From a virus, in IMG/VR virus record IMGVR_UViG_3300040806_000953, positions 1-28,550 of that record: a stretch of 28,550 nt of DNA. The stretch is one strand, 5' to 3'. Shown here in pieces: positions 1,297 through 14,029 of this stretch. How positions within the stretch are numbered: position 1 is the stretch's first letter; every line of letters begins with the position of its first letter. The translations under genes and the position numbers were made by a program. The notes below the pieces were generated by a model. The model was given only the letters and a program-made list of their open reading frames with translations. It ran no database searches and had not been told where the DNA came from.

Positions 1297-2407
1297 TAAT
1301 ATTGCTAAAAAATATGCCAAGCAGTTAAAAAAAGCTGGTTACGATAAAACATGTCGTATTGGAGTTTTTAGTAATACTGAGAATATATTTAAAATTTTTG
1401 GAGCTATGCAAGTATGTAGCCCTGTTATTATAGACCATACTATGACCGAGCATGAGCTTAGTTATTATGACATAGATATATGGGACAATACACTTCCGTT
1501 GCCGCGATACAATCAATGCAACACAGATGAAGTTGTGGGTATATGCAGTAGCGGTAGTACCGAGAAACATCGTATAATACCAATTACTGAAGATCAATAC
1601 TATCGAGATGGATTAGATAATAATATACAAATTCATGGAAATATTACAGAACATGATAGTACTATAAATGTTATACCATTATGGGTTTGTATAGGCTTTC
1701 AAACATTTGCACTATGTTATAAAACAGGAGCAACCTATTATATTTTAGATGATCCATGGAACTCTTGGCCTAGAGTAAATCCTACATTTATTATCGGAAG
1801 TCCAAATGTATTACGTGGAATGATGTCTCCCAATGTGCCGTATGAAAACATGACCATACGACATATAAGAACAGTTGGCGCACCTATGTATAAAGACTTT
1901 AAAATTGAAGCACAAAAGTTTTTCAATTGTATTACTACAGACAGTTACGGAGTAAATGAAATAGGCACTATTAGTATAATGCATTATCCGCAAAAGTACA
2001 ACAGTGTAGGTTACGTTTTAGATAATATCGACTGTAAAGTAATCGATAATGAAATAATTGTAAATAATTTTGCAACAGGAGATCTAGGACATATAGATGA
2101 AGATGGATTTCTTTTTATAACAGGTAGAAAAAAAGAAACAATTATAAATGGCGGCTGGAAAATTATGCCTTATGAAGTAGAACAAGCATTATTAGATTCA
2201 GGAGCGTCTGATGTAGTTGTGTTTGGGTACGATACTGTGTATGCAGAAGTAGTGGGTAAGATTGATTTAGACTTACTAAAGTCAAAAATAGCTAGATATA
2301 AAATTCCTGAAAAAATATTTTATGTTGAAAGTATTAAACGAAAAGGTCAAGGTAAGATTAACAGGAAGAATTTATTAGATGAATATAAACAAAATAGAAA
2401 AATATGA
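1241..2407 (+). CDS. AMP-forming acyl/aryl ligase (ANL superfamily), short form
   Basis: A 388-residue adenylate-forming enzyme with most core ANL motifs: A3 phosphate loop ICSSGSTEKH (101-110), A5 SYGVNEIG (233-240), A7 TGDLG (277-281), the hinge region GRKKETIINGGWKI (293-306), and A10 GQGKINR with the catalytic Lys near 370. It would activate a carboxylic acid as an acyl-AMP and pass it to CoA or another acceptor. Normal ANL enzymes have about 500-550 residues; the shortening is in the N-terminal subdomain. An in-frame TAG at 1226-1228 shows that no longer start exists. The start has a purine-rich stretch (AGAAGAAG) before it and lies 56 bases inside the hydrolase gene. No carrier protein is visible nearby. 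Substrate unknown. Confidence 0.8.
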   Translation: MKPFLVFENGTTYTKPQFDNIAKKYAKQLKKAGYDKTCRIGVFSNTENIFKIFGAMQVCSPVIIDHTMTEHELSYYDIDIWDNTLPLPRYNQCNTDEVVGICSSGSTEKHRIIPITEDQYYRDGLDNNIQIHGNITEHDSTINVIPLWVCIGFQTFALCYKTGATYYILDDPWNSWPRVNPTFIIGSPNVLRGMMSPNVPYENMTIRHIRTVGAPMYKDFKIEAQKFFNCITTDSYGVNEIGTISIMHYPQKYNSVGYVLDNIDCKVIDNEIIVNNFATGDLGHIDEDGFLFITGRKKETIINGGWKIMPYEVEQALLDSGASDVVVFGYDTVYAEVVGKIDLDLLKSKIARYKIPEKIFYVESIKRKGQGKINRKNLLDEYKQNRKI

Positions 2408-3359
2408 CTGGTATGAAGATTATATAGTGCATTGGCGCCCTACCAATATGTGTAATTATGATTGTAGTTATTGCGAGCCTTCCAATCATCACGCAATCGA
2501 CAAGCGAAAATTACCAAATGTAGAAGACTTAATCGCTGCTGCTAAAAAGATAAGAGATAGTGTTCCTGCAGATAAAAGTGTGTTAGTTTATATTACAGGC
2601 GGCGAGCCATTCTTGATCAAAGATGTACATAAGTGGTTTAACTGGATGGGTGAAAATAATATTAGAGTGGGCATTTTTACAAACGGAAGTTTGCCATTAA
2701 AAATATATGATATGAGCAAAGAGTCATTTAAAAACATTAATATCAAAATAAGTTTTCATCCTGAGTTTGCCGAAATTGATAGAGTTGTTGAGTTTGTTAA
2801 TATGATTAAAGAAAACAACGGCAACGTAGAAATCCGTGCAATGATGGCAGCAGGATTATTTCATAAAGTAGATGAATTAGAAGAAAAGTTGCTCAATACT
2901 CCTATTGTAAGATTGCCTGTATTTCCGTTATATAATAAAACAACACAGGAAGTCAATCCTACTTATTCTTCGAGTAGATTTTTAGAAGGGTACAATCAAA
3001 AAATAGATGAAGGGCAGCTAGGATATTATACTAAAGATGAGTTAGATATACTTGAAAACTTAGAACAGGATGAACCTACTTATTTAAGTTGTACTGTAAA
3101 TAATGACATTGAAACTAATGCTGTTAATTTTGTAACAGAAAGAACAAACAAGTTTAAAGGCTGGACATGCGGTATTGTTAATAAAAAAATATTAATAGAA
3201 GCTAACGGAAATGTAAAGTACGGAACTTGCGCTGCTACAGGTATTATTGGAAATATTTTTAAAGATGATTTAACTCTCTTTGATAAGCAATATACTACCT
3301 GTCAAAGAGAAGTTTGTACTACATTAGATGAAATAATGGTTACTAAGTTTAAGGTGTAG
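2379..3359 (+). CDS. Radical SAM protein with SPASM-like C-terminus
   Basis: A 326-residue protein with a canonical radical SAM CX3CX2C cluster at Cys25, Cys29 and Cys32 (MCNYDCSYC) and the SAM-binding GGEP motif near residue 75. The C-terminal third carries further cysteines, in LSCTVNN, GWTCGIV, YGTCAATG and TTCQREVC. This resembles the auxiliary Fe-S region of SPASM or twitch enzymes, which modify peptides or small molecules. The start has AGGAAG upstream and overlaps the ligase gene by 29 bases, so the two are translationally coupled. Its 3' end overlaps the convergent tail fibre gene by 11 bases. The substrate is unknown; a product of the adjacent ligase, or a short peptide, is possible. 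It is not QueE, which is encoded separately at 12262. Confidence 0.85.
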   Translation: MNINKIEKYDWYEDYIVHWRPTNMCNYDCSYCEPSNHHAIDKRKLPNVEDLIAAAKKIRDSVPADKSVLVYITGGEPFLIKDVHKWFNWMGENNIRVGIFTNGSLPLKIYDMSKESFKNINIKISFHPEFAEIDRVVEFVNMIKENNGNVEIRAMMAAGLFHKVDELEEKLLNTPIVRLPVFPLYNKTTQEVNPTYSSSRFLEGYNQKIDEGQLGYYTKDELDILENLEQDEPTYLSCTVNNDIETNAVNFVTERTNKFKGWTCGIVNKKILIEANGNVKYGTCAATGIIGNIFKDDLTLFDKQYTTCQREVCTTLDEIMVTKFKV

Positions 3360-5301
3360 CAGCAGTACCGTCGTCTAAATTAATCCATGCGCCGCCTTGA
3401 CGTCCTTCAAATTTATCATTAGTACTATTGTAAATAACCATTCCGTTTACAGGTGTTAGTGCATCACGTTCTGTAGATGTTAATGATCCAAACTGAACAA
3501 ATCCGTCGATCTTAGCATTACCGTTATTTACGTGAAGCTTCTCGTCGGGGCGCGGCGTGCCTAACCCTAAATATCCTTGACTATTAAATAATAATAGATT
3601 TTGTAAGTTACCTGCTGAATTGGCTGTAATGAACATAACTCTGCCAGGCACAACACCTGGCGATACTGTAGAATCTAAATCAGTTGCAATTCTAACAATA
3701 CCTGCTATGTTATAGTCGCTACCATCATATCCTGAACCTTGTATCTCGCCTAGTGCATCGCCTGTAGTACCGCCTTCAACGGTTAAGGGAGCATCAACAG
3801 TGCCTGTGCTAGTTTGGAAAAGTACCTGGGGACCAATTGCTCCGGGTTTTGCTAGACCTGTTAATGTAGCCATTATATTATCGTTTGTAGTAACGTCTAT
3901 TTTGGCTGTTGAATCTATTTTACCAACAATACTATTTGCAACACCATCTACAAGTACAGTTGAATCATCGCCAAACACACTTCCAGTTACGTCACCGTTT
4001 ACAGTACCAGTTAAGTTACCGGTTACATTACCAGTTACATTACCAGTTAGGTTACCAGTTACATTACCAGTTACAGTCCCAGTAGCACTGATATCTGTTG
4101 TAAAAACTGAAGTACTGTTTACAGAATTCACATATAGTTCATTCCATTTTTTATCAGTTAATCCTATATTTTTTGCACTGTCTACTGATGGCAAAACATT
4201 CGTAATAATAGCTTCTAAATCAAGTGGATTTGCAGGTCTAAATACAAGATCCGAACCTGCTAGTAATACTTGACCTTCTGTTGGCGGAGTAGTTAGATCA
4301 ACATTCGATATGTCGTTTAACTCTAAAGTCTTTGCTTTCCAGCTAGTTGACCCGCCGTCGTATTGTAAAAAATCATTATCTAATACACCAAGCGATAAAT
4401 CAATATCAGTAATATTTGCAAACACTGGAGCAGGTACAGCATCGTTAATCCAACTATTAGAACCAGGGTTCCATACAAGTGTTTGACCTGCTGTTGGACT
4501 AGTTGTAGTAACATCTGTTAAATCGTTAATGCTTGCGTTTAATGCAAACACGCCGGTTGCGTTATTATATTGTAAACCGACACCTGCACTTAAATCTGTT
4601 AAGGCTATTCCACCACCACCACCTTGTGCTGCTAGTGCCTGCCATTTACCAGCAGTTGAATTCCATGTAAGAACTTGGTTATTCTGTGGATTTGTTGCAT
4701 CAACATCGGATAACAGTGATAAAGACTGATCTGATGCTGTCCAAGTACTTGTGCCATTATTCCACTTTAAGACTTGGCCGTCAGTTGCACTTGCTTGTGC
4801 TAATGCTGATGTAGTAATTCTTGATGTTGCTGAATCTATAAGAATAGTACTATCGTCGCCTACTATGTCTGCATTTACACTTGCAGCATTAAACTCGCCG
4901 TCGATATTAATGTTAGTAGTATATAAGTTTTTAAAACGCTTATTAGCATTACCTAATATATAGGCGTTGTTACTTGTAGGTATTAAATTACTACCTAGTC
5001 CAGTACCTTCTCCTGATTGCAAACTTAAACTTGTAGCGTTAATTCCGCCTTGTATATTAATTGCCCCTGTTCCGTTAACAGTAAAACTATTAAGTGACAA
5101 GTTTCCTCCTAGTTCAGGGGAAGTATCCTCAACAATATTATCTATACCCAAGAACGGATCACCAGTAACTGGAAGACCTCCTGCGTTTATACCGTCTCCA
5201 ATATAAAGTCTTTTAGTATCAATTGTATATATCAGCTCACCTTGATCAGGTGTAATGGTTTGTCTATCAGCATTTGTACCACGGCGTACTCTTAGCGGCA
5301 T
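3349..5301 (-). CDS. Tail fibre / virion structural protein
   Basis: A 650-residue fibre-like protein. The N-terminus (MPLRVRRGTNADRQTITPDQ, then GELIYTIDTKRLYIGDG) is the usual opening of marine T4-like phage fibre proteins. A middle region repeats a module of the form LxDV-xT-P-GQxLxWN-xW, seen about five times between residues 170 and 350. A VTGN/LTGN repeat follows (encoded by 3981-4088). The C-terminus has GLGTxxPxEKLHV and GMVIYNSTNDKFEGRQGGAWINL, typical of fibre tips. It probably contacts the host surface. The start is supported by TAGGAGATAAAC before the ATG and a late-promoter-like ATAAATA further upstream. The gene converges on the plus-strand radical SAM gene with an 11-base overlap. 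Confidence 0.85.
   Translation of the reverse strand: MPLRVRRGTNADRQTITPDQGELIYTIDTKRLYIGDGINAGGLPVTGDPFLGIDNIVEDTSPELGGNLSLNSFTVNGTGAINIQGGINATSLSLQSGEGTGLGSNLIPTSNNAYILGNANKRFKNLYTTNINIDGEFNAASVNADIVGDDSTILIDSATSRITTSALAQASATDGQVLKWNNGTSTWTASDQSLSLLSDVDATNPQNNQVLTWNSTAGKWQALAAQGGGGGIALTDLSAGVGLQYNNATGVFALNASINDLTDVTTTSPTAGQTLVWNPGSNSWINDAVPAPVFANITDIDLSLGVLDNDFLQYDGGSTSWKAKTLELNDISNVDLTTPPTEGQVLLAGSDLVFRPANPLDLEAIITNVLPSVDSAKNIGLTDKKWNELYVNSVNSTSVFTTDISATGTVTGNVTGNLTGNVTGNVTGNLTGTVNGDVTGSVFGDDSTVLVDGVANSIVGKIDSTAKIDVTTNDNIMATLTGLAKPGAIGPQVLFQTSTGTVDAPLTVEGGTTGDALGEIQGSGYDGSDYNIAGIVRIATDLDSTVSPGVVPGRVMFITANSAGNLQNLLLFNSQGYLGLGTPRPDEKLHVNNGNAKIDGFVQFGSLTSTERDALTPVNGMVIYNSTNDKFEGRQGGAWINLDDGTAATP
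3981..4088 (-). repeat. 12-bp tandem repeat encoding VTGN/LTGN
   Basis: Nine consecutive 12-base units related to TACCAGTTACAT on the plus strand lie inside the tail fibre gene and keep frame. Units at 4029-4040 and 4053-4064 are identical, and the others differ by one to five bases. They encode alternating NVTG and NLTG tetrapeptides. The arrangement suits expansion or contraction by slippage without loss of frame. Confidence 0.9.
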
Positions 5302-5331
5302 GTTTATCTCCTAAAGAATAATTCTTACTAT

Positions 5332-5339
5332 GTATTTAT
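5332..5339 (-). promoter_or_regulatory. T4-late-like promoter box upstream of tail fibre gene
   Basis: On the minus strand this reads ATAAATAC, close to the T4 late -10 box TATAAATA. It lies about 30 bases before the tail fibre ATG, in a short intergenic gap and followed by a good ribosome binding site. Late transcription suits a fibre gene. Confidence 0.6.
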
Positions 5340-5357
5340 CAAAGTGTTATCAGAACC

Positions 5358-5672
5358 TTATTTTCCTTTCTTAAGAAAAAACTTTGTTCTTTTAGTAATA
5401 TCGTGTTTTACTTTTTCAACATTAAGTCTAAAGTCGATATTATCAATATAATCATTATATTCTTCAAGTAACGATTCAATTTCAGCTTCTAAATTAGCCG
5501 CAGACGGCTTTTCTAGACTTTTTTGTATATCTACTTCCCATATTTTACCGTCAGTAAATAAGATTCGCATACTATGGAGGTACTCTAGCGGAACTACTGA
5601 AACATCCACATCATTGAGTACCTCCGGCCAATGGTCGATTACGTCTTGCGGAAGTTTATTCTGTTTGCTCAC
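5358..5672 (-). CDS. Conserved-looking phage protein, unknown function
   Basis: A 104-residue protein without a recognised domain. It has a beta-rich N-terminal half (SVVPLEYLHSMRILFTDGKI) and a charged, probably helical region (about 55-90) rich in Glu, ending in a basic tail KRTKFFLKKGK. Similar small proteins occur in marine T4-like phages next to structural genes, from memory. Its first 17 bases overlap the end of the next upstream gene (5656-6246), so it is probably co-translated with it. Possibly virion-associated. Confidence 0.7.
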   Translation of the reverse strand: MSKQNKLPQDVIDHWPEVLNDVDVSVVPLEYLHSMRILFTDGKIWEVDIQKSLEKPSAANLEAEIESLLEEYNDYIDNIDFRLNVEKVKHDITKRTKFFLKKGK

Positions 5673-6246
5673 TCTTTTGACGCTTTTTAGTTGGCACTAG
5701 CTCTTCTGCTTTTCTTCTAAGTTCAGCAGCTTCTTTATATAGTGCATTAGCTTGCGATCTATACCCTTTAGCTATATCTTCGTCAGTAAGAGCTGATTCA
5801 GTAGTATTTGAATCATTGATGTATACATCTTCTGCAGGCTTTGTGTCTTCGGAGGTTGTTGCAGTGCCACCTGCTAATTCAGCAATAGTTACACCTTTTT
5901 GATCAGCGATCATCTGATTTAACTCTGCTAAATTAATTACGTTTTTAGTATCTGGCGTCATTTCTACATCTTTAGTAAGTTGTTTTGATAGTTTGCCAAA
6001 TTTATGAAACGCTTTTAACATATTACGTCCGTCGGGTAGTGTTGCTCTGTCCATTGCATCAGCAAGTTCGTCAGCTGACTGTCCGGCGTTTGATTCAATA
6101 CAACGCATTAGTGCGTCATGCTCGTCTGCCGACAATGACTCTGTAGACACTACCAGGCAACTTTCTGCGTCACCTGGCAATGTTCTAAAAGCAACTCCGA
6201 CCTTTTTTCTTGTAGAGGCAATTCTGCCTACATGCTTTAAGGCCAT
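5656..6246 (-). CDS. Conserved phage protein, possible virion or assembly factor
   Basis: The protein has 196 residues if it starts at ATG 6246 (MALKHVGRIASTRKKVG), where AGGAAC precedes the start; the frame is open further upstream but would run into the neighbouring gene. The N-terminal 100 residues look globular (RTLPGDAESCLVVSTESL; MLKAFHKFGKLSKQL). The middle is acidic and Thr/Ser-rich, and the C-terminus is a charged helix with a basic end (ELRRKAEEL then KKRQK). No known domain is recognised. It sits in a three-gene run with the 104-residue and 98-residue proteins, four bases downstream of the latter. Confidence 0.7.
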   Translation of the reverse strand: MALKHVGRIASTRKKVGVAFRTLPGDAESCLVVSTESLSADEHDALMRCIESNAGQSADELADAMDRATLPDGRNMLKAFHKFGKLSKQLTKDVEMTPDTKNVINLAELNQMIADQKGVTIAELAGGTATTSEDTKPAEDVYINDSNTTESALTDEDIAKGYRSQANALYKEAAELRRKAEELVPTKKRQKSEQTE

Positions 6247-6250
6247 ATTA

Positions 6251-6547
6251 TTAAGTTCCTGTTTCTGTGCCTTCTGTTGGTGCTTCACCTTCAGGGGCTT
6301 GTGATTGTTGTGCTTGTACTGCAAGCAAGAAGTTGTTTAGGCGTGTATATGTTTTGCCTACAGCTTCCATTTCAGTTGGCCGGAATGCGCCTCTTGCACT
6401 AGCAACATCGATAATTTGTTTTAGTGCATTTAAATCACCAATACTTAGATCAGTGTTTTGTTCACCTTGTGCTTCTTGAGCATTTTCTACTAGTTCTTCA
6501 GCTACAGCTGGATCAGTAGTTGTTTGTGTTTCAGTAGTTTCAGACAT
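6251..6547 (-). CDS. Small acidic conserved phage protein, unknown function
   Basis: A 98-residue protein. A Thr/Glu-rich disordered N-terminus and a Glu/Gly/Thr-rich tail flank a conserved-looking core (DLNALKQIIDVASARGAF, then PTEMEAVGKTYTRLNNFLLA) that is probably helical. This core is familiar from T4-like marine phages, where its role is unknown. AGGAGA lies before the start at 6547. It begins a run with the next two genes downstream. Confidence 0.7.
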   Translation of the reverse strand: MSETTETQTTTDPAVAEELVENAQEAQGEQNTDLSIGDLNALKQIIDVASARGAFRPTEMEAVGKTYTRLNNFLLAVQAQQSQAPEGEAPTEGTETGT

Positions 6548-6593
6548 ATTATGTATTCTCCTTTGTTTACTTATAATATATATCTACAATTAA

Positions 6594-6872
6594 CTAATTG
6601 TATTTTAAAAGTGGACAAGCTAATAAAAAATAACTAGCCTCTTTTTCGTTTTCAAACCCTATTTGAACAACTGTTTCAATTTTGTTCGTAGTAGTTGAAA
6701 TATTTACACCCTTACATATAGCGTATCTTCCTTTTAGTTTACTATTAATCCATTTATCAACAGCATTAATTGTATTATACTTATATTCGATATTAACTTT
6801 TTCAAAATATTCTGGTATAATAGGAAGTTTTCGAGTACCAAGTAAGTTGTGTGGATTAGGCCGCATTGTCAT
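6594..6872 (-). CDS. Small unknown protein downstream of the VWA gene
   Basis: A 92-residue protein with no recognised domain. The N-terminus contains RPNPHNLLGTRKLP, and the remainder alternates strands and basic residues (YKYNTINAVDKWINSKLKG). It overlaps the last 17 bases of the VWA/metallopeptidase gene, so it is probably translated from the same message as the moxR-VWA pair. The second Met (ATG at 6866) is an alternative start. No clear Shine-Dalgarno sequence is visible for either. Confidence 0.6.
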   Translation of the reverse strand: MTMRPNPHNLLGTRKLPIIPEYFEKVNIEYKYNTINAVDKWINSKLKGRYAICKGVNISTTTNKIETVVQIGFENEKEASYFLLACPLLKYN

Positions 6873-8172
6873 AATGTGCCGTTACACCGAACGGTGCCTC
6901 TAAGTTCTTTTGATGATTACTGTGAATAATAAATACTGTATCACAGTATTCTGGATCGCCCCATGAATCCCATGCATAACCGTCTGTAAACATTAAGAAC
7001 TTCTTAGGTTGAATATCATTTTCTTTCATATAAGTCCAATTGACCATAAAGTCAGTGCCGCCGCCGCCCATAACTTGATATTCTGATAAGTCTTCGCCAC
7101 CGTCGGCACTAAAATCTTCTTCGTTATAGACTTTTGTATCAAAGCACCATAACTTAATTTTATAGTCTTTGTATTCGTCCATAATACCTTTAACTTCGCT
7201 TAGGAAGTCTGTAGCCTGATCATTACCTATCGACCCGCTCATATCAATACAAATACATAAATCAATAGTTTGATCAAAGTTCATACCAGGCAAAACTGCA
7301 CCGGTATGCCATCCTTTGCGTGAAGGACGCATAAATGTATAATCACTTCGAATTGTTGACTGAATTTGCTGACGCAAAATTTCACGCCAGTTCATTTTAG
7401 GCTCAGTAAGCTCTTTAATCATACGAGCAATTTCACCTGGAATATTACCTGCGCCCGAACTTTGTGCCGCAGAAATCATTCCTTCTTTTATTTCGTCACG
7501 TATTTTACGTAGTTCTTCTTTAGAATATTTCGGCGGTCCGCCTTTACCTTTGCTTTTGCCTGGAGTAGTACTATTACCATTGTCGCTATCGCCATCACCT
7601 TCCCAGTCAACATGTTCGTCTAACAGTTCACCGAGTTGTTTTAGTTCTTCCTCGTCATACTTGCCAAAGATGTCATCGTATACTTCTTCTGATGTCCAGC
7701 CTTCGTATTTAAAGTCTTGAAAACAATCAATAAAGGTAGGTTTATTACCAATACGATCTCTTACTAGTAGGTTGTTTACAATATAGTCAGCGGCAATGTT
7801 GTAAATTTGCGGATCTCTATCATCTCTACGTGCCAAGTGGTCAAATACACAATGAAGAATTTCGTGTGCAATAACAAACTCTACTTCTTTGTTTGACATT
7901 GCATTAAAGAACTGTGTATTGTAATATAAGTTACGTCCGTCGACAGCGGCAGTAGGGCACCAGTCGTCTGCTTCTTTAATAATCAAACGTGTTGCCATAT
8001 TACCAAAGAAAGGATGGCGAAGTAGTAATCCTACACGAGCAATAATAATACGATCTAATACTTCAACTCGCATTTCTTCTAATGCTTCTGGAGTAATATC
8101 AGGGTCTGGAGCCCAATTCTTTTTACCTTCTAAGTTGTACAGTACATCTGAATTAAAAAAATCTAAAGGCAT
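6856..8172 (-). CDS. VWA-domain protein with metallopeptidase-like N-terminus
   Basis: A 438-residue protein starting at ATG 8172, which is preceded by AAGGAGAAGG; the longer reading frame upstream overlaps the ATPase gene and is not needed. The N-terminal domain has an HEXXH motif, HEILH at 103-107, followed by DHLARR and an AxDxxxN-like segment, as in the putative metallopeptidase domain (DUF2201-type). The middle is a Gly/Ser/Lys-rich linker. The C-terminal VWA domain keeps a MIDAS site: DMSGS, the Thr of GGGGTDF, and TDG. Proteins of this build pair with MoxR ATPases. The gene follows the ATPase by 10 bases. It probably acts as a metal-dependent adaptor or peptidase in phage assembly or host takeover; the target is unknown. 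Confidence 0.8.
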   Translation of the reverse strand: MPLDFFNSDVLYNLEGKKNWAPDPDITPEALEEMRVEVLDRIIIARVGLLLRHPFFGNMATRLIIKEADDWCPTAAVDGRNLYYNTQFFNAMSNKEVEFVIAHEILHCVFDHLARRDDRDPQIYNIAADYIVNNLLVRDRIGNKPTFIDCFQDFKYEGWTSEEVYDDIFGKYDEEELKQLGELLDEHVDWEGDGDSDNGNSTTPGKSKGKGGPPKYSKEELRKIRDEIKEGMISAAQSSGAGNIPGEIARMIKELTEPKMNWREILRQQIQSTIRSDYTFMRPSRKGWHTGAVLPGMNFDQTIDLCICIDMSGSIGNDQATDFLSEVKGIMDEYKDYKIKLWCFDTKVYNEEDFSADGGEDLSEYQVMGGGGTDFMVNWTYMKENDIQPKKFLMFTDGYAWDSWGDPEYCDTVFIIHSNHQKNLEAPFGVTAHYDNAA

Positions 8173-8182
8173 AACCTTCTCC

Positions 8183-9277
8183 TTATGCTGATTGCGCCGC
8201 AGTAATATACTTACCATAACGTTCGTGGAATTCGTCAAAACATTCAACTTCGTCTGGATCAATTGGAAGACTATATTGTGTAAGTGCAAGTTTGATACCC
8301 ATAACAACTAACTCTGTATCAAAATTATCCATACTAAAGCGTAGGAAGTTGTTGACTTTGTCGTCAAACTTTTTATCGTTTTTATTACATGCTTCTCTAA
8401 GTTCGTAACAAAGTGATACGGTTAAAGAATACATAGCACTAATTTCTTTATTTTGTAAGTCTTTTACTTTGCCTGCTAAGATATCAGTTGGGTTAGGCAT
8501 TTTAGATGCAATTTTTCGGTGCGCCATAAATTTAACAGCAAGACCTTCGCCTACTGATCCGCTTACAAGATCTGTTGTAGTTTCTTCATCTTCACCGTCT
8601 TCTAACAGTTCTGATACAAATGACCACGAACGAGGCGTAGCAAATGAACGACTTGGACTCTTAGGATCAAAATCATACAAGTCTTTTTTAGCAAATGTCA
8701 AATAACCTACAACGTCCTTGTGTTGATTATTTTCTGGTGCAACTGCCCAATCAAACCAATCATCAAATGATACAGTAAGCTCTAAGTGTACAAAGCGGTT
8801 AGCCAGCGGAGCAGGCATACGATATGTAACACCTTTGTCAGCTTCACGGTTGCCTGCCGCAATAATAATAACGTTGTCGGGCAGTTTATATGTACCTACT
8901 CGACGATTAAGAATCAACTGGTATGCTGCCGCTTGTACTGCTGGCGCCGCAGAGTTCATCTCATCTAAGAACAATACAATATTATCAAATTGCTCTGCCA
9001 TTTCCTGTGTAGGCAATTCAATTGGCGGAGCCCATTTCATTGTATTATCGTTGGCAGCATAATAAGGCATGCCTTTAATATCTGTTGGATCCCATAATGA
9101 TAGACGAATATCAATCAAATGCGAGTTAGGTAGTGAGTTGGTTACTTGCCCTACAATGTCCGACTTACCAATACCTGGAGGTCCCCAAAGGAAGATTGGA
9201 CGTTTTTTCTTCATAGCACGTAGAATACTACGTTTTGCTTTATTTGGAGTTACAGTACGTGTTGCAATATTTTCCAT
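8183..9277 (-). CDS. MoxR-family AAA+ ATPase
   Basis: A 364-residue ATPase starting at ATG 9277 (MENIATRTVT) with AAAGGG upstream; the frame continues 15 codons higher, across the promoter region. Walker A is GPPGIGKS (32-39) and Walker B is IVLFLDE (100-106), followed by MNSA, with a sensor-like AAGNRE further on. Layout and length fit MoxR-type chaperone ATPases, which remodel protein targets through a VWA-domain partner. That partner is the next gene downstream. A sigma70-type promoter lies just upstream (9311-9339), so this pair is probably transcribed early. Cytoplasmic. Confidence 0.85.
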   Translation of the reverse strand: MENIATRTVTPNKAKRSILRAMKKKRPIFLWGPPGIGKSDIVGQVTNSLPNSHLIDIRLSLWDPTDIKGMPYYAANDNTMKWAPPIELPTQEMAEQFDNIVLFLDEMNSAAPAVQAAAYQLILNRRVGTYKLPDNVIIIAAGNREADKGVTYRMPAPLANRFVHLELTVSFDDWFDWAVAPENNQHKDVVGYLTFAKKDLYDFDPKSPSRSFATPRSWSFVSELLEDGEDEETTTDLVSGSVGEGLAVKFMAHRKIASKMPNPTDILAGKVKDLQNKEISAMYSLTVSLCYELREACNKNDKKFDDKVNNFLRFSMDNFDTELVVMGIKLALTQYSLPIDPDEVECFDEFHERYGKYITAAQSA

Positions 9278-9310
9278 TACTTTTGCCCTTTGCTGTGTTG
9301 CTATACTACT

Positions 9311-9339
9311 AATATAGTACATATTGAGTCAAAAGTCAA
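9311..9339 (-). promoter_or_regulatory. Sigma70-type promoter for moxR/VWA genes
   Basis: On the minus strand, TTGACT (9334-9339) and TATATT (9311-9316) are separated by exactly 17 bases. The -35 hexamer contains the TGA stop of the upstream gene (9336-9338). The predicted start of transcription leaves a short leader before the ATG at 9277. Confidence 0.7.
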
Positions 9340-9722
9340 CCGCTTTTGGCAAATTTTTCCATAGTTTTTGTCAATCCGTATCTATTAATATCGCCTGAAA
9401 AGAGTGTTAGTTCAACAGCTTTTCTTTCGTTTGTGACATAGATACTATACGGAGTAAGATAATATGGACTATCAATAAACTGATCTAAGAATATAATAGC
9501 ATGAACAGTTAAGTTAGTGTCTTTAGGAAACGGAACTTCGTATACAGTAATTTCTAATTCGTTTAACATTTGAAAGCCGTCATCGGTTAAACGTAATCCG
9601 CCAATATTTTTGTTTCGAGTGTTTTTCCACCATTTTGGAATGTGCTCTTTTACAGACACTTCATTAGTACTCTTACCTTGTTGATGCAAAAAAACTTTTG
9701 TATATTTTTGCTTAGGATTCAT
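9336..9722 (-). CDS. Unknown phage protein
   Basis: A 128-residue protein with no recognised domain. The N-terminus is basic (KQKYTKVFLHQQGKS). The centre contains PKWWKNTRNKNIGGLRLTDD and the remainder is probably beta-rich (ELEITVYEVPFP; AIIFLDQF). It starts two bases after the stop of the 93-residue gene upstream, so the two are likely co-translated. Its TGA stop is part of the -35 box of the moxR promoter. Confidence 0.65.
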   Translation of the reverse strand: MNPKQKYTKVFLHQQGKSTNEVSVKEHIPKWWKNTRNKNIGGLRLTDDGFQMLNELEITVYEVPFPKDTNLTVHAIIFLDQFIDSPYYLTPYSIYVTNERKAVELTLFSGDINRYGLTKTMEKFAKSG

Positions 9723-9724
9723 TA

Positions 9725-10006
9725 TTAAACTTTTTCACCTTGTGTTAGCTTATAAACAGAGAAGTCAGTACAATTAAATAAACGATTTAATCGTTTTTGT
9801 AGATTTAGTGCATGTCCTGGATTAGAAAAACTTACCTTTTTATATTTAGGGCCCGGGTAGTTTGTGATTACATTTAGTGTCTTTAAATTAAAAGGTTTTC
9901 CCTTGTAAAAGACTGCCCAAATTGCATCAGCTTCGAGCACTTGCTCGCTTTTATAGGTAGTTTTTTCTATTTTTTCTAATAAAACAGTAGGCTTAGGTCT
10001 ACTCAT
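9725..10006 (-). CDS. Small basic unknown protein
   Basis: A 93-residue protein containing DAIWAVFYKGKPFNLKT and FSNPGHALNLQKRLNRLFN, with a short beta-rich C-terminus ending in VYKLTQGEKV. It looks like a conserved family of marine T4-like phages with no known role. AAAGGAACG precedes the ATG. A late-promoter-like ATAAATA lies about 30 bases upstream, so late expression with the following 128-residue gene is likely. Confidence 0.65.
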   Translation of the reverse strand: MSRPKPTVLLEKIEKTTYKSEQVLEADAIWAVFYKGKPFNLKTLNVITNYPGPKYKKVSFSNPGHALNLQKRLNRLFNCTDFSVYKLTQGEKV

Positions 10007-10035
10007 ATGCGTTCCTTTGTAGTTATATACGCATA

Positions 10036-10042
10036 TATTTAT
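10036..10042 (-). promoter_or_regulatory. T4-late-like promoter box
   Basis: The minus strand reads ATAAATA, followed by TATG, in the 45-base gap upstream of the 93-residue gene. It matches the tail fibre box in sequence and in its distance of about 30 bases from the ATG. Confidence 0.5.
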
Positions 10043-10051
10043 CTAAAAAAA

Positions 10052-10282
10052 TTAGAAATTTTCGCCTTGCATTACAATACTAATAACTTCTTCTGCATTT
10101 TTATCTTTAATAAGTAGTTCTTCTAGATCACCGTTTAGTCTAGTCATTACTTCGGCTAGTGTAAATGCAACTTTTTTAGCAGTCTGTATATCTAATCTAA
10201 TTTCTTTTTGATTACTTGCGTCTGCAGATTTTACTTGTTGTATAAATTTTTCTAAAGGAATAGTATTTAGAGATTCTTTCAT
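10052..10282 (-). CDS. Small unknown protein
   Basis: A 76-residue, probably all-helical protein (FIQQVKSADASNQKEIRLDI; KVAFTLAEVMTRLNGDLEEL). No domain is recognised. Its ATG overlaps the TGA of the upstream 158-residue gene (ATGA at 10279-10282), so its translation is coupled to that gene. Confidence 0.65.
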   Translation of the reverse strand: MKESLNTIPLEKFIQQVKSADASNQKEIRLDIQTAKKVAFTLAEVMTRLNGDLEELLIKDKNAEEVISIVMQGENF

Positions 10283-10755
10283 TGTCTATCCTTTTTATTT
10301 GCAAGACTTAATTTGTGTTTCATTTCTAAATCAGTTAAGAACGGTCCTTGATATTCGTAACGCTCGCAAGTTATTAGTTTAGGGCAAAAACTTTTAACCC
10401 AGCCTTTGTCAAACTGAATAATATAGTAACCTGCACAATATAAACTAGTAGACTTCTCACTTTTTGTAAACAGCGGTAATTTGCGTTTAACATCAAATAC
10501 ACTATTACATGGAGGAACATTTGTTGGAAATCCGTGAACTTCTTTTTCTGTTATTACATATTCTTTAATACTTCCATTAAAAATGCTCTTTCCTAATTCT
10601 TTTGTAAGTGTAGATTTATCTTTAAAAAATTTATTTTTATTAGATGTACTAAACATATAACGATCTTCGTTGTAGCTAATAGTTCCAACCTTATCAGAAC
10701 CGTTTTCTACAATCCAAAATTTGTTTTTTAATATTTCTTTTGCTTTAAGCCCCAT
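10279..10755 (-). CDS. Unknown phage protein
   Basis: A 158-residue protein starting at ATG 10755 (MGLKAKEILKNKFWIV), preceded by GAGGTATAATA; the open frame upstream lies within the RNase H gene. It is rich in Lys and aromatic residues and probably beta-rich, with FWIVENGSDKVGTISY, a central EVHGFPTNVPPCNSVFDVKR and a C-terminal CERYEYQGPFLTDLEMKH. No domain is recognised. It overlaps RNase H by 11 bases, placing it in the operon started by the rnh promoter. Confidence 0.7.
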   Translation of the reverse strand: MGLKAKEILKNKFWIVENGSDKVGTISYNEDRYMFSTSNKNKFFKDKSTLTKELGKSIFNGSIKEYVITEKEVHGFPTNVPPCNSVFDVKRKLPLFTKSEKSTSLYCAGYYIIQFDKGWVKSFCPKLITCERYEYQGPFLTDLEMKHKLSLANKKDRQ

Positions 10756-11734
10756 TATTATACCTCGCTTGTAATGGTTCGGCAAACGATGCCGCTTGGT
10801 CTGCAATACGTTGCATATCCCACTTAGCACAGAACTTCATTAGTCTCATGCCTACTTGAGAAATATTTTTACCTTCAACTGATTGAACAGTATTATTTAT
10901 AATTTCTCTAATATCTTCGGGTTGTGCAGTTAAATCACACAGTACAACATTGCGTGTGTAGTCATCTAGTACACGATGCTCTTGACCGTTGTGATCTGTC
11001 CAACGCTGTAGCATCATGTTATTCCAATTGTAACCTTTAGTACCTTTGTCTTCGTATGCTTCAATAAGGCCTACTTTATTCTTAGTACCTTTCTTGCGGA
11101 CACCTGGATAAGCACTAAACACGTTGTCACTAGTATCACCACGCATACACTTTTCAAATAACATGTAGTCAGGATGTGGAGCAGGCTTAGGCTCGTTAGT
11201 CTTCTTGTCAATTACACGCTCGCCCTTATCATCAAAGTAACCTTCGTGTGTAATAGTAACGTTCTGTATACCGTTATACTGACGTACATTAGGTGCAATA
11301 AGTTGTGCAAAGTCACCGTCTGTACTAATAATAACATGGTTGTCGTTAGGATGTAATTGTATCCAACCAGCAATAAGATCATCTGCTTCTAGTTGCATAT
11401 GTTGCATAACAGTACAGTTAGTCTTTGTACTTACAAAATTTTTAAACTCGTCAAAGATCTCCCAAAACACTTTGTCTTCATCTGCTTGTGCAGGAGTCAT
11501 TGCATCTCGAGTCTCTTTGCGGTTACGTTTGTAAGGCTCGTAGTAGTCCTTGCGCCAACTGCGTCCTTCTAAACAAAACACAACATGATCTGCATCAAAG
11601 TCGCGCCATGCTTTTTTAACACCTGCAAGGGTGATATGTAATGCCATACCTAACTTTGTATCAATGTCGCCACGTACAACGTGTCTTGCACGAAAGAACG
11701 TGTTAGCAGTATCTACTAGAATATATGTTGCCAT
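10745..11734 (-). CDS. rnh: RNase H / 5'-3' exonuclease (T4 Rnh-like)
   Basis: A 329-residue FEN-family nuclease, near the size of T4 RNase H (about 305). It removes RNA primers and flaps from the lagging strand. Acidic and basic motifs appear in order: LVDTANTFFRARH (Asp8), YEPYKRNRKE (66-74), LEADDLIA with Asp118 and Asp119, STDGDFAQL (Asp139, Asp141) and MRGDTSDNV (Asp200, Asp203). These are the metal-binding residues of 5' nucleases. It starts at 11734, with GAGGCAAACTA before the ATG, and a consensus sigma70 promoter stands just upstream. It would work with the polymerase and clamp encoded further right. Confidence 0.9.
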   Translation of the reverse strand: MATYILVDTANTFFRARHVVRGDIDTKLGMALHITLAGVKKAWRDFDADHVVFCLEGRSWRKDYYEPYKRNRKETRDAMTPAQADEDKVFWEIFDEFKNFVSTKTNCTVMQHMQLEADDLIAGWIQLHPNDNHVIISTDGDFAQLIAPNVRQYNGIQNVTITHEGYFDDKGERVIDKKTNEPKPAPHPDYMLFEKCMRGDTSDNVFSAYPGVRKKGTKNKVGLIEAYEDKGTKGYNWNNMMLQRWTDHNGQEHRVLDDYTRNVVLCDLTAQPEDIREIINNTVQSVEGKNISQVGMRLMKFCAKWDMQRIADQAASFAEPLQARYNNGA

Positions 11735-11763
11735 TAGTTTGCCTCTGTGTAATTTATAGTATT

Positions 11764-11792
11764 ATTATAGCATCGGATCTGACTATTGTCAA
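11764..11792 (-). promoter_or_regulatory. Consensus sigma70 promoter for rnh
   Basis: The minus strand has TTGACA (11787-11792) and TATAAT (11764-11769) separated by exactly 17 bases, a perfect match to both hexamers. It sits in the 61-base gap between the 126-residue gene and rnh. Strong early expression using the host RNA polymerase is expected. Confidence 0.85.
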
Positions 11793-11795
11793 CCA

Positions 11796-12176
11796 TTAAG
11801 ATATTTCACTTTTACCTTTGTCAATCGGCACTACATTAATGTAACCAGCATCACGTTTAGGATCTTGTCCTTCTTCCCCTAGCATTTGTGCTACAATAGT
11901 TCTAAACCATGCATCAACAATCTGCTCATTAGTTTCGCCTGAGTAACCTGCATCAAGTAGTTGTTCGATAAACTCATTATTCCAATCGAGCTCAAAGAAA
12001 CCGTTCTTAATGTTATCTGGATTCACTTGTGTATCTAGTACTGCTACCCAAGGTTTCTTATCTTTGGTTGCCTGTGCTTTTTCTTTTTCAAGAATAGCTC
12101 TGCGTTCTTCTTCTGAAGTAAGTTTTTTAACTTCTTCAGCTTTCATACCCAACGCTTTTTTCATTTTATCTAACAT
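11796..12176 (-). CDS. Unknown phage protein
   Basis: A 126-residue protein. A charged helical N-terminus (MKAEEVKKLTSEEERRAILE) precedes a more globular domain with WVAVLDTQVNPDNIKNGFFE, LDWNNEFIEQLLDAGYSG and DAWFRTIVAQMLGEEGQ. A good Shine-Dalgarno sequence, AGGATGG, lies before the ATG, inside the end of the small upstream gene. From memory it resembles a conserved family of marine T4-like phages with no known function. It is the last gene before the rnh promoter. Confidence 0.65.
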   Translation of the reverse strand: MLDKMKKALGMKAEEVKKLTSEEERRAILEKEKAQATKDKKPWVAVLDTQVNPDNIKNGFFELDWNNEFIEQLLDAGYSGETNEQIVDAWFRTIVAQMLGEEGQDPKRDAGYINVVPIDKGKSEIS

Positions 12177-12179
12177 ATA

Positions 12180-12278
12180 TTACCATCCTGCCTTTCGTAT
12201 TTTATCTTCGTTAATAGGAGCCTTCATAGCCCGTTCGTGTTGCTTGTTCTTGTATTTTGCATCAAGTGCCCCACGCAT
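12180..12278 (-). CDS. Possible 32-residue peptide after queE
   Basis: A 32-residue basic peptide starting MRGALDAKYKNKQHERAM and ending in KAGW. It overlaps the 3' end of queE by 17 bases and fills the gap before the next gene, whose ribosome binding site lies in its last codons. The same frame stays open upstream to 12680, but that part lies antiparallel-free within queE in another frame and is hydrophobic noise. No convincing Shine-Dalgarno sequence is visible, so this call is tentative. Confidence 0.35.
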   Translation of the reverse strand: MRGALDAKYKNKQHERAMKAPINEDKIRKAGW

Positions 12279-13218
12279 TTCCGAAGAGTGAAATGTGTAG
12301 TCTTGGAGTGAATCTCCATCCTTCTGCCATACACGCTTCGGCAACTTCTTTAACGTTGAGATTGTATTCTTCACTGCGTCCGCCCATTGGCATAAGATAG
12401 ACTGGACATTGTACCCCGGCACTTCTGTAAGCGTCCACAGCTCTCTTAACCTCTGCAAAGTCGCTTTCAGTAGCGACAACAAACTTGAGATACAATTCGC
12501 TATCGCTAACCCTAGTATAATCAAGAGCAACGTCAGGCTTAATAGCAGTCTCCCAAGGTTCTCCGCTAACACTAAGTTTTGGGGAACAACTCCAAGTGAC
12601 TTGAATTCTGTTAGACCTGTTGAGATACTCGTAGAGATCATTGTGTAATAGTTGTGTAGTGTTTGTTTCAAATGTAACATTTTTTAAATCCTGCATACGT
12701 GGATGTTCGAACAGCTCTACGTAAAGTCGTTGCCACGCCAACAACGGCTCACCACCTGTCATAATTAAGTGTACATCTTGACCATTATCTTGTACCCAAT
12801 TACCATTAGGAGTAAGTGAAAGCAAATGTTCAACTACTTCGTCTACAGTTGCCTGTTTATTAAAGTGTTTAAACTCTGGATAGATACTAGCATAAGTGTC
12901 ACATCCTGTATGAATAATAGGTAAGTCTGTAAACTCTTTTGTAGTTTCATGTACACCTGCGTCAAGTAATCCTTGTACTTCAGCATTATGGATAATGCCA
13001 GCTTTCTGTTTTTCGTCACGCATTAGCTCGTTCTTTAAGCCAAAGTTCATACAACGAAAGTTACAACCAAATGTGCGTAGGAATACACTAGGTACTCCTA
13101 CAAACTTGCCTTCGCCTTGTACTGAATAAAATGCTTCTGAATATCTAAGTTTCATAGCTGGCTTTCTGTTAACTGCTTCATGTGACGGATATCCTTTTTC
13201 AAATACTGGTGCTATCAT
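12262..13218 (-). CDS. queE: 7-carboxy-7-deazaguanine synthase-like radical SAM enzyme
   Basis: A 318-residue protein starting at ATG 13218, which overlaps the stop of the 44-residue gene as ATGA and has AAGGATG upstream. It would convert 6-carboxytetrahydropterin to 7-carboxy-7-deazaguanine. Visible QueE features are SVQGEGKFVGVPSVFLRTFG, the radical SAM cysteines and MTGGEPLLAW. The cluster motif is unusual: Cys52 and Cys56 (GCNFRC) are followed by MNFG rather than a third Cys two residues later. The likely third ligand is Cys106 in HTGCDTYAS, which matches the WCDT motif of bacterial QueE but lies 49 residues further on. A similar split may be typical of phage QueE. Its neighbours folE, queD-like and dpdA support the deazaguanine role. 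Confidence 0.8.
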   Translation of the reverse strand: MIAPVFEKGYPSHEAVNRKPAMKLRYSEAFYSVQGEGKFVGVPSVFLRTFGCNFRCMNFGLKNELMRDEKQKAGIIHNAEVQGLLDAGVHETTKEFTDLPIIHTGCDTYASIYPEFKHFNKQATVDEVVEHLLSLTPNGNWVQDNGQDVHLIMTGGEPLLAWQRLYVELFEHPRMQDLKNVTFETNTTQLLHNDLYEYLNRSNRIQVTWSCSPKLSVSGEPWETAIKPDVALDYTRVSDSELYLKFVVATESDFAEVKRAVDAYRSAGVQCPVYLMPMGGRSEEYNLNVKEVAEACMAEGWRFTPRLHISLFGNAWGT

Positions 13219-13349
13219 TTGTTTAACATCCTTGCACAAGTAAAGAAACTGTTTTCTTCCAAACAATCACTCCAGATATGTTGTAGATAAAATCCTACAC
13301 CTACAACAAAGATAAGTGCAGCAGCACCATAAATTAGTTTCTCAATCAT
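13215..13349 (-). CDS. 44-residue membrane peptide between folE and queE
   Basis: A 44-residue protein starting MIEKLIYGAAALIFVVG. One hydrophobic segment (residues 5-22) suggests a single membrane span, followed by a polar tail with YLQHIWSDCLEENSFFTC and ending in ARMLNK. Both ends are coupled: its ATG overlaps the folE TGA, and its TGA overlaps the queE ATG. This double overlap and the natural composition make it a real gene despite its size. From memory, a very similar tail occurs in tiny proteins of other marine T4-like phages. Function unknown; it may only sit in the operon and not act in deazaguanine synthesis. Confidence 0.75.
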   Translation of the reverse strand: MIEKLIYGAAALIFVVGVGFYLQHIWSDCLEENSFFTCARMLNK

Positions 13350-14029
13350 CGTGCAAACTCCTGTTGTAGTTTAATGTTGTCAAAGAACTCTTTCTTTGTA
13401 CCAGCATCATCTTTAAAAGATCCACGTAATACAGTTGTTTGTGTTAAACTACTGTGTGCCATAATGCCGCGATTCTCACAACAGCCGTGTGTTGCTTGAA
13501 TGTAAACACCCAAGTGTTCTGCATCTGTTGCCGCTTGAATCTCACGTGCAATATCATTTGCAAGTTCTTCTTGTAGTGTTCCACGTCTAGCACACCATTG
13601 CGCAATACGTGTGTACTTGCTTAGACCAATTAATTTGTCTGCGGCAATAATACCAATGTATGCAATACCAGCTACTGGCTGGTGATGATGCGAACACATA
13701 CTCTTTAGTTCCGAACGCACTACTAGCATACCTTCATAGCGATCATCACTATCATTAGGAAATGCTGTTGCAGTTGGCGCAGGATCATAACGTCCTGCCA
13801 TGATCTCATTGTAGTACATCTTAGCTAAACGCTTTGCTGTACCTTTGCTGTTAGGGTCTTGATATCTATCAATTACAAGTGCGTCTAGCACACTTTCAAA
13901 TGCTGTAGTTGCTTCGTTGATAAGTTCTTCTTTATCACCTTCTTGCAATACTGCACTAATATTATCGCCAGCCCAATAGCGTTGTTTTGCCTGTACTAGG
14001 CGTGCCTTAATTTCTTCACTTTTACTCAT
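13346..14029 (-). CDS. folE: GTP cyclohydrolase I (FolE)
   Basis: A 227-residue enzyme of normal FolE length. It opens GTP to give 7,8-dihydroneopterin triphosphate, the first step of folate and 7-deazaguanine synthesis. Zinc ligands are visible as Cys112 and His115 (MCSHHHQPVAGIAYIG) and Cys183 in HGCCENRGI. Other family motifs are present, including IGLSKYTRIAQWCARR and LQEELANDIA. The start has GGAGAAG upstream. A perfect sigma70 promoter and a 37-base dyad precede it. The gene is ATGA-coupled through a 44-residue peptide to queE. Supplying precursor for DNA deazaguanine is the likely purpose, since no folate genes are nearby. Confidence 0.93.
   Translation of the reverse strand: MSKSEEIKARLVQAKQRYWAGDNISAVLQEGDKEELINEATTAFESVLDALVIDRYQDPNSKGTAKRLAKMYYNEIMAGRYDPAPTATAFPNDSDDRYEGMLVVRSELKSMCSHHHQPVAGIAYIGIIAADKLIGLSKYTRIAQWCARRGTLQEELANDIAREIQAATDAEHLGVYIQATHGCCENRGIMAHSSLTQTTVLRGSFKDDAGTKKEFFDNIKLQQEFAR

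Follow-up and report, generated by a model that had tools for sequence, protein, structure and literature searches.

A MoxR-type ATPase and its metallopeptidase-VWA partner in a phage genome fragment: intact motifs, conserved early-type promoters and possible roles

The subject of this work is a pair of neighbouring genes in a stretch of viral DNA of 28,550 bases (IMG/VR record IMGVR_UViG_3300040806_000953, positions 1 to 28,550, probably a fragment), referred to here at its full length as the window. The pair encodes a MoxR-type AAA+ ATPase and a partner protein with an N-terminal zincin-like metallopeptidase domain and a VWA domain carrying a metal ion-dependent adhesion site (MIDAS). A reading made from the sequence alone had described a complete two-gene chaperone-like module, and the pair is indeed found at the positions given there, with both genes, their families and their motifs in place according to Pfam, PHROG and motif alignment. 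The pair is real, widespread in large phages and described before, and the window contributes a further member. Its features are as follows.

8183..9277, minus strand: gene of the MoxR-type AAA+ ATPase, 364 amino acids (Pfam, PHROG, AlphaFold2, Foldseek)
6856..8172, minus strand: gene of the zincin-like metallopeptidase plus VWA (MIDAS) partner, 438 amino acids (Pfam, PHROG, AlphaFold2)
9311..9339, minus strand: sigma-70-type promoter of the pair, TTGACT-17-TATATT, 10 of 12
8173..8182, minus strand: ribosome-binding site of the partner gene, GGAGAAGGTT (from the sequence)
9161..9184, minus strand: Walker A, GPPGIGKS, ATPase residues 32-39; K38 in 99/99
8957..8974, minus strand: Walker B, LFLDEM, ATPase residues 102-107; D105 in 99/99, E106 in 98/99
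8996..9088, minus strand: putative helix-2 insert of the ATPase (helix 64-68, strands 70-74 and 79-83, helix 91-94; AlphaFold2 model)
8795..8797, minus strand: R161, candidate arginine finger; 99/99
8630..8632, minus strand: R216, candidate sensor 2; 99/99
7852..7866, minus strand: HEILH, partner residues 103-107; HEXXH kept in 102/102 close viral loci
7786..7788, minus strand: D129 of the partner, candidate third metal ligand; 102/102, invariant in 60 aligned sequences
7231..7245, minus strand: MIDAS motif DMSGS, partner residues 310-314, completed by T373 and D397

The genes are separated in the window by only 10 nt. Longer open reading frames (ORFs) listed with starts at 9322 (ATPase) and 8307 (partner) were set aside, the first because the -10 box of the promoter (9316..9311) lies downstream of the ATG at 9322, and the second because the AGGAGA ribosome site fits a start at 8172.

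At the family level, the ATPase matches the Pfam models AAA (31.8 bits), AAA_3 (28.1 bits, cut-off 27), which we take to be the MoxR model, and AAA_5 (24.6 bits), all above their cut-offs, the generic model thus outscoring AAA_3. The PHROG matches of the pair are phrog_1297 for the ATPase (7.3e-99) and phrog_1314 for the partner (5.7e-114), and in a sequence profile search the AAA domains of midasin are the best match of the ATPase (4.3e-29). The residues that mark the MoxR, or helix-2-insert, clade are present, with K38, D105, N143, R161 and R216 identical in all 99 sequences compared and E106 in 98 of them, and a hairpin region at residues 64-94 would, in our own reading of the AlphaFold2 model (mean pLDDT, the predicted local distance difference test, 89.2), correspond to the MoxR helix-2 insert. 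A Foldseek search with this model places NorQ first (9qh4, E 3.6e-9), NorQ chains filling ranks 1 to 10. VIA-align ranks dynein first (Z 17.0, root-mean-square deviation (rmsd) 3.5, 230 residues aligned), followed by NorQ (Z 14.6, rmsd 3.6, 220 aligned) and CbbQ (Z 14.4, rmsd 3.7, 229 aligned); since Hsp104 and MCM chains are also found at Z 13.4 and 13.1, close to NorQ, the VIA-align Z value alone does not single out MoxR.

The partner carries both domains of the DUF2201 metallopeptidase-VWA family above their cut-offs, DUF2201_N (PF13203) with 140 bits (1.5e-40, cut-off 23.2) and the VWA-like DUF2201 (PF09967) with 55.5 bits (7.9e-15, cut-off 26.4), together with HEXXH and an Asp downstream of it. 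Besides D129, H112 is another candidate for the third metal ligand. The AlphaFold2 model of the partner (mean pLDDT 81.7) finds the MIDAS domain of MDN1 as its best Foldseek match (8ql1, E 1.8e-4, template modelling (TM) score 0.24 by query length) and an integrin-type I domain as its first VIA-align match (3bn3, Z 12.6, rmsd 2.9, 137 aligned), while the zincin domain has weak sequence matches to M48 (3c37, E 0.0019) and MJ1213 (E 0.012). Relatives of the partner often bear the label 'HNH endonuclease' (24 of the 60 matches listed, against 9 labelled as metallopeptidases), among them NC_008720.1 gp25, NC_042013.1 gp263 and OR258281.1 XaC1_288, and phrog_1314 bears it too. This identity was rejected, as the Pfam matches of the partner up to E 1 include no HNH model.

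Close relatives were gathered from viral contigs, at least 80 loci at first and at least 102 different ones after a second search, contigs fetched twice being merged; searches with single proteins from N4, Atu_ph07 and rV5-type phages yielded 4 loci in total, of which two were N4 and Atu_ph07 again. Motifs were counted in 102 partners (the window, 80 close viral loci and 21 others, which contain near-repeats, three rV5-type and two N4-type) and in 99 ATPases, the window's own locus (L001) and two second copies (L086 and L088) being excluded. In the partner, H103, H107, D129, N133, D310, S312, S314 and T373 are identical in 102/102, and E104, H112 and D397 are each present in 101/102. The intact Walker, HEXXH and MIDAS motifs claimed for the window are thus also kept by its relatives, and the outcome named beforehand as speaking against the claim, a majority of homologues lacking HEXXH or Walker residues, was not observed: HEXXH stands in all 102 close viral loci and in 20 of 21 distant ones. 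Chance occurrence of the motifs was accordingly rejected. The sole departure from HEXXH in the motif set is the HQILH of Atu_ph07, and since Phosso, a relative of this phage, has HEVLH, the loss of the Glu looks recent.

The two genes also travel together. Order and strand are shared by 79 of 80 close loci; the remaining locus is truncated by the end of its contig, and 3 of the 79 have an additional gene between ATPase and partner. Of the 101 loci measured in the larger set, 98 have a gap of 150 nt or less. The distance matrices of ATPase and partner correlate with r 0.907 for 61 sequences and r 0.925 for the 24 labelled as phage, with maxima of 0.185 and 0.251 over 999 permutations; shared ancestry adds to r. 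For these comparisons and the tree, 60 of 65 loci were used, those without a strong ATPase match being left out, and two contigs from bacterial metagenome-assembled genomes (MAGs; L107 and L108) were labelled phage by assumption. On a broader scale, among 50,697 phage records searched at E<=0.001, 800 match the family of the partner and 811 that of the ATPase.

Some loci show their own arrangements. The gene inserted between ATPase and partner has a polysaccharide lyase domain in one relative (L010, 7101-7946), and in another it is an ORF with no Pfam match (L076, 6452-7432). In the rV5-type phage FFH2 (L085, 1-9216), the ATPase lies near rIIA, from which two genes separate it, and on the strand opposite to that of the partner. 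Immediately before the partner stands a gene annotated as anti-sigma factor, which has no Pfam match. In Alteromonas phage AD45-P1 (L101, 3830-8494), the order is reversed, partner then ATPase, followed by a 669-residue protein without Pfam match that could be a third component.

Bacterial relatives reveal a separation of the metal site from the catalytic residue. Out of 47 bacterial loci 37 were used, 4 duplicates and 6 without a readable motif being dropped; 'bacterial' is a label here, many of these loci coming from MAGs. The catalytic Glu is kept in 25 of the 37 and lost in 12, where V, L, M, T, A or Q takes its place and both His stay. Across 60 phage and bacterial sequences the only invariant columns are H103, H107, H112, D129, G242, D310, S312, S314, T373 and D397, which include all five MIDAS positions. 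On a midpoint-rooted FastTree tree of 61 sequences, a quick build with support values left aside and with the two MAG contigs labelled phage as above, there are at least 4 changes in the Glu state and at least 5 in the phage/cell label. The equation of HEXXH with a peptidase therefore needs a caveat, because several bacterial lineages and Atu_ph07 lost the Glu and kept the ligands. As for gene arrangement, in 32 of 37 loci the bacterial ATPase and partner share a strand and lie within 1.5 kb of each other, the ATPase being upstream in 30 of these, and the order is reversed in L121-L123. In three phylum samples, each including the genome on which it was centred, the family occurs at E<=0.001 in 5/79, 5/150 and 17/101 genomes (above the family cut-off in 4, 2 and 17), so that the pair family is uncommon in two of the three phyla sampled. 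Proteins with LRV repeats, matches to which can be unspecific, lie beside the pair in 6 of 8 betaproteobacterial loci (L112, L115, L116, L117, L118 and L120), and WGR domains in 3 of the 8; the LRV-repeat neighbourhood presumably recalls that of E. coli molR/yehL.

At the expression level, the evidence comes from promoters. Sites scoring at least 10 of 12 precede the ATPase gene in 86 of 99 relatives, which share ancestry and are not independent, whereas 4.6 are expected from mononucleotide shuffles, a result that bears out the early-type promoter ascribed to the pair. These 99 are drawn from the 102 relatives, and 62 to 97 were scored for the control genes and 78 for the exonuclease of the same block, loci without a usable start or upstream gene being dropped. 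The partner gene is also preceded by such a site in 91 of 99 relatives; the window itself has none there, its best site scoring 8 of 12. Upstream of the exonuclease gene the window has a site of 12 of 12 at 11792..11764, and 58 of 78 relatives have at least 10 of 12, while control genes of the same block have such promoters in 0/62, 0/87, 4/97 and 0/74 cases. By itself, a scan of window positions 5200-12000 gave no significant excess (32 sites against 24.6 +/- 5.1 expected). In four phages, the coding strand carries 4, 5, 2 and 2 sites scoring 11 of 12 or better in the regions of the pair (17-21 kb) and 0, 0, 0 and 0 in 20-kb capsid regions, whereas mononucleotide shuffles give about 0.4-0.8 per strand. 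Lowering the threshold to 10 of 12 yields 9, 10, 15 and 7 versus 3, 2, 4 and 3. This contrast is strong, not absolute, and the sites belong partly to other genes. Its conservation and the capsid-region contrast indicate that the early-type promoter is real. The greater number of sigma-70-like sites near the pair, compared with the surroundings of the capsid gene, points to early expression, which we regard as likely for the phage group of the window. A T4-type late promoter was also considered, but the motif ATAAATA precedes 9 of 26 genes in capsid regions versus 7 of 37 in pair regions, a difference too weak to be used. Just 3' of the ATPase -10 box, several relatives have a stretch like ATAGTTAGAAATTAGCACTGA (L128, 7887-7950; L132, 8720-8780), perhaps an operator or leader; no such stretch is seen downstream of this box in the window.

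The pair lies in a syntenic block that runs from an exonuclease gene to a tail-fibre-like gene, the latter found in 83 of 102 loci. The remaining genes of the block occur in 92 to 102 of them, some loci being cut short.

10745..11734, minus strand: 5'-3' exonuclease gene, upstream in the block
6594..6872, minus strand: conserved downstream gene, 92 amino acids, present in 100/102 viral loci
3349..5301, minus strand: Mtd_N-domain protein, tail-fibre-like, last gene of the block (Mtd_N 1e-9)

The downstream gene shares 17 nt with the end of the partner gene, and its protein has no Pfam match at E<=1 and no PHROG match at E<=0.01. The window also encodes a family B DNA polymerase (Pfam), and in several phages the pair has neighbours in DNA metabolism, namely dCTP deaminase, thymidylate synthase, Dda-like helicase and DNA polymerase genes. 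QueE-like radical SAM (12262-13266), GTP cyclohydrolase (13346-14029) and further radical SAM (2379-3359) genes in the window suggest 7-deazaguanine DNA modification. A search of the window for RNA families and tRNAs found none. A gp23-type T4 capsid gene (PF07068) occurs in 4 of 16 longer relatives of the window group and the tail sheath PF04984 in 0 of 16, these records being fragments in which misses mean little.

Several known systems resemble the pair. The N4 pair gp24/gp25 (Schitoviridae) has the same families and order as the window, with HEXXH (HELWH), MIDAS and Walker residues intact and identities of 26% (partner) and 29% (ATPase). A 2014 comparison of 25 N4-like phages placed it in their core, although in a 2020 analysis only one of three methods assigned gp25 to the core. 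In N4 both are middle genes (PMC4193335), a class transcribed by the phage's own RNA polymerase, whereas the window group has sigma-70-type promoters. In jumbo phages, a MoxR gene next to a vWA gene fused to an N-terminal metallopeptidase, for which a role in virion assembly was proposed by analogy with a pair of Acidianus two-tailed virus (Iyer et al. 2021; PMC7824862), has the architecture found in the window, as seen in Atu_ph07 and the RaK2/121Q group, the Atu_ph07 partner differing by HQILH in place of HEILH. The description of the window as a module thus stands as regards architecture and is incomplete as an account, since the pair was already in print. The best-ranked named relative is Pseudomonas phage 30-3, with identities of 49.0% (ATPase) and 43.6% (partner); 30-3 and PA5oct (Arenbergviridae) both have queE upstream, PA5oct also having an annotated exonuclease, and both have four genes between ATPase and partner, including a putative homing endonuclease in PA5oct, against 10 nt in the window. 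S-CREM1 carries a phage MoxR ATPase as well (PMC9964418), possibly of this pair.

Outside phages, NorQ/NorD and CbbQ/CbbO share with the window a MoxR ring and a VWA partner, NorQ being the best Foldseek match of the ATPase with CbbQ close behind; to our knowledge the VWA proteins NorD and CbbO have no HEXXH domain. Midasin (Rea1/Mdn1) resembles the pair as an AAA ring working with a MIDAS domain, but it is one giant chain that acts in ribosome assembly and is not known to have a zincin domain. The bacterial DUF2201/MoxR pairs are the same pair as that of the window and differ by the LRV-repeat linkage in betaproteobacteria, the Glu loss and the reversed order described above. In NorQD, which inserts iron into nitric oxide reductase, a finger of the NorD VWA domain (residues 403 to 448) reaches into the pore of the ring, and the VWA partner is twisted by ATP cycling (PMC13036017). 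Metalloprotein maturation or a stress role, which the sequence-only reading had offered for bacterial pairs, is reported for other MoxR/VWA pairs (NorQD, RavA-ViaA), but no such report for the DUF2201 subfamily was found in the open-access literature searched, nor any peptidase activity of the family. The same reading had called the phage function not established, and these open-access sources indeed yielded no experimentally tested one; passages of a CRISPRi-ART study using N4 name no result for gp24 or gp25.

Taken together, it is highly probable that the pair is an AAA+/MIDAS remodelling machine. The ATPase would form a MoxR-type ring on which the partner would dock, the MIDAS metal of the partner would grip an acidic residue of the target, as the midasin and NorQD pairs suggest, ATP cycling in the ring would pull or twist the gripped target, and the N-terminal zincin domain would clip the strained target or hold metal against it. 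The action is thus modelled on the twisting of the VWA partner in NorQD, with a zincin arm added. In this phage group host RNA polymerase would switch the pair on from its sigma-70-type promoter, so that the pair most likely works on an intracellular complex of the host or the phage, starting early in infection. An active peptidase in the phage of the window seems somewhat more likely than not, early intracellular action could go either way, and whether the main target is something other than virion parts is an even call; the overall reading, a remodelling machine with a clipping or metal-holding arm working from early infection, we hold as evenly balanced. These grades and those of the alternatives do not sum to unity, the readings overlapping one another.

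Several observations weigh against this reading. The loss of the catalytic Glu in 12/37 bacterial homologues and in Atu_ph07 weakens the peptidase part; the structure-search rows listed for the partner cover its VWA domain and barely probe the zincin domain; and this VWA domain (about residues 300-438) has no obvious insertion like the NorD finger, which leaves room for another mode of docking. Whole regions, not the pair alone, underlie the promoter contrast, the best promoters in the four phages score 10, 11, 10 and 9 for the ATPase and 12, 12, 10 and 10 for the partner, and that of the exonuclease scores only 7 in two of them. Further points of this kind come from jumbo-phage preparations, where the ATPase is listed in the proteomics of PA5oct (an electrospray ionization tandem mass spectrometry note, ESI-MS/MS), phAPEC6 and fENko-Kae01, and from 121Q, where the pair adjoins structural genes.

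These data fit a machine for virion assembly or maturation, in which the pair would help structural proteins to fold or assemble, or would trim them, with the ATPase remaining on the particle, as proposed for jumbo phages (PMC7824862); this is a possible but minor alternative. The phAPEC6 protein gp265c (6 peptides, 19% coverage; PMC7247149) is tied to the 121Q ATPase by mass (49.52 versus 49.51 kDa), and gp259c, gp262c, gp265c and gp267c agree with their 121Q neighbours to 0.01 kDa. In the PA5oct stretch viewed, genes marked by mass spectrometry are mostly structural, DNA polymerase, PhoH, ClpA-like and DnaJ genes being unmarked. In XaC1, Rhizobium phage Y2_6 and S-TIM5, too, genes labelled structural are found only a few genes away from the pair. 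Near its gp24/gp25 homologues RPP1 encodes four virion proteins, LIT1 reportedly has a similar additional cluster of structural genes, and in the window group a tail-fibre-like gene closes the block of the pair. However, the promoters of the window group are of early type and rarer around the capsid gene, the N4 pair belongs to the middle transcripts, and the protein lists are not clean, since that of phAPEC6 also holds a RecA-like protein, SSB, a topoisomerase and thymidylate synthase (PMC7247149) and the marked PA5oct genes include the exonuclease and a MazG-like enzyme. The authors of the fENko-Kae01 study remark that their 300-kDa filtration retains any complex above 300 kDa and allows no conclusion, and a hexamer of the 49.5-kDa ATPase would amount to about 297 kDa. 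The partner, in turn, has no proteomics note in PA5oct or fENko-Kae01, and no hypothetical-protein entry of phAPEC6 fits its mass (54.06 kDa in 121Q); its absence from the three proteomes counts against assembly by the pair and also leaves a stable ATPase-partner complex only putative.

A factor for counter-defence or host takeover, with the pair removing or dismantling a specific host protein complex, appears rather unlikely. It would agree with the early-type promoter, with the several phage groups that carry the pair and the phage/cell changes on the tree, and with other MoxR-vWA systems read as conflict systems in bacteria, whose third component is VMAP, iSTAND, FtsH or a beta-propeller (PMC7159879). 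Nevertheless, a core pair of 25 N4-like phages looks more housekeeping-like than patchy, with the reservation noted for gp25, and only partial matches of the ATPase were obtained with PADLOC (best DolB, 2e-5, residues 23-163), which were taken as the shared AAA fold, so that membership in a defence system was rejected. The ATPase reaches 15.8 bits against bpMoxR (cut-off 27), and no third component of the ternary conflict systems was seen among the only 10 window proteins scanned with Pfam. A further reading, in which the DUF2201 domain would be a metal-holding grip with an optional protease, bacteria having repeatedly dropped the Glu and phages having almost always kept it for an early takeover machine that unfolds and clips one conserved host complex, is improbable on present grounds; we know of no demonstration of an energy-driven, MIDAS-aimed phage protease as a tool of host takeover. 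Finally, a metallochaperone that inserts metal into a phage or host metalloenzyme in the manner of NorQD, its H-H-D site holding metal and cutting nothing, would suit the NorQ match and the metal site that outlasts the Glu in bacteria, but is quite improbable given a Glu kept in all 102 close viral loci, stricter than a mere metal site needs, and annotated neighbourhoods in which, judged by eye only, no single metalloenzyme gene stood out.

Within the searches made, three aspects appear to be new: the uncoupling of the metal ligands from the catalytic Glu, the conserved early-type promoters with their capsid-region contrast, and the occurrence of the ATPase without its partner in three proteomes. 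They concern a family that is widespread, core in N4-like phages and often labelled 'HNH endonuclease', for which the open-access literature searched gave no tested function. The kept metal ligands set against the lost Glu offer a direct test of whether these zincins cut, and a pair that proved to be an ATP-driven, MIDAS-aimed protease would reveal how phages break up a complex of the host or the virion.

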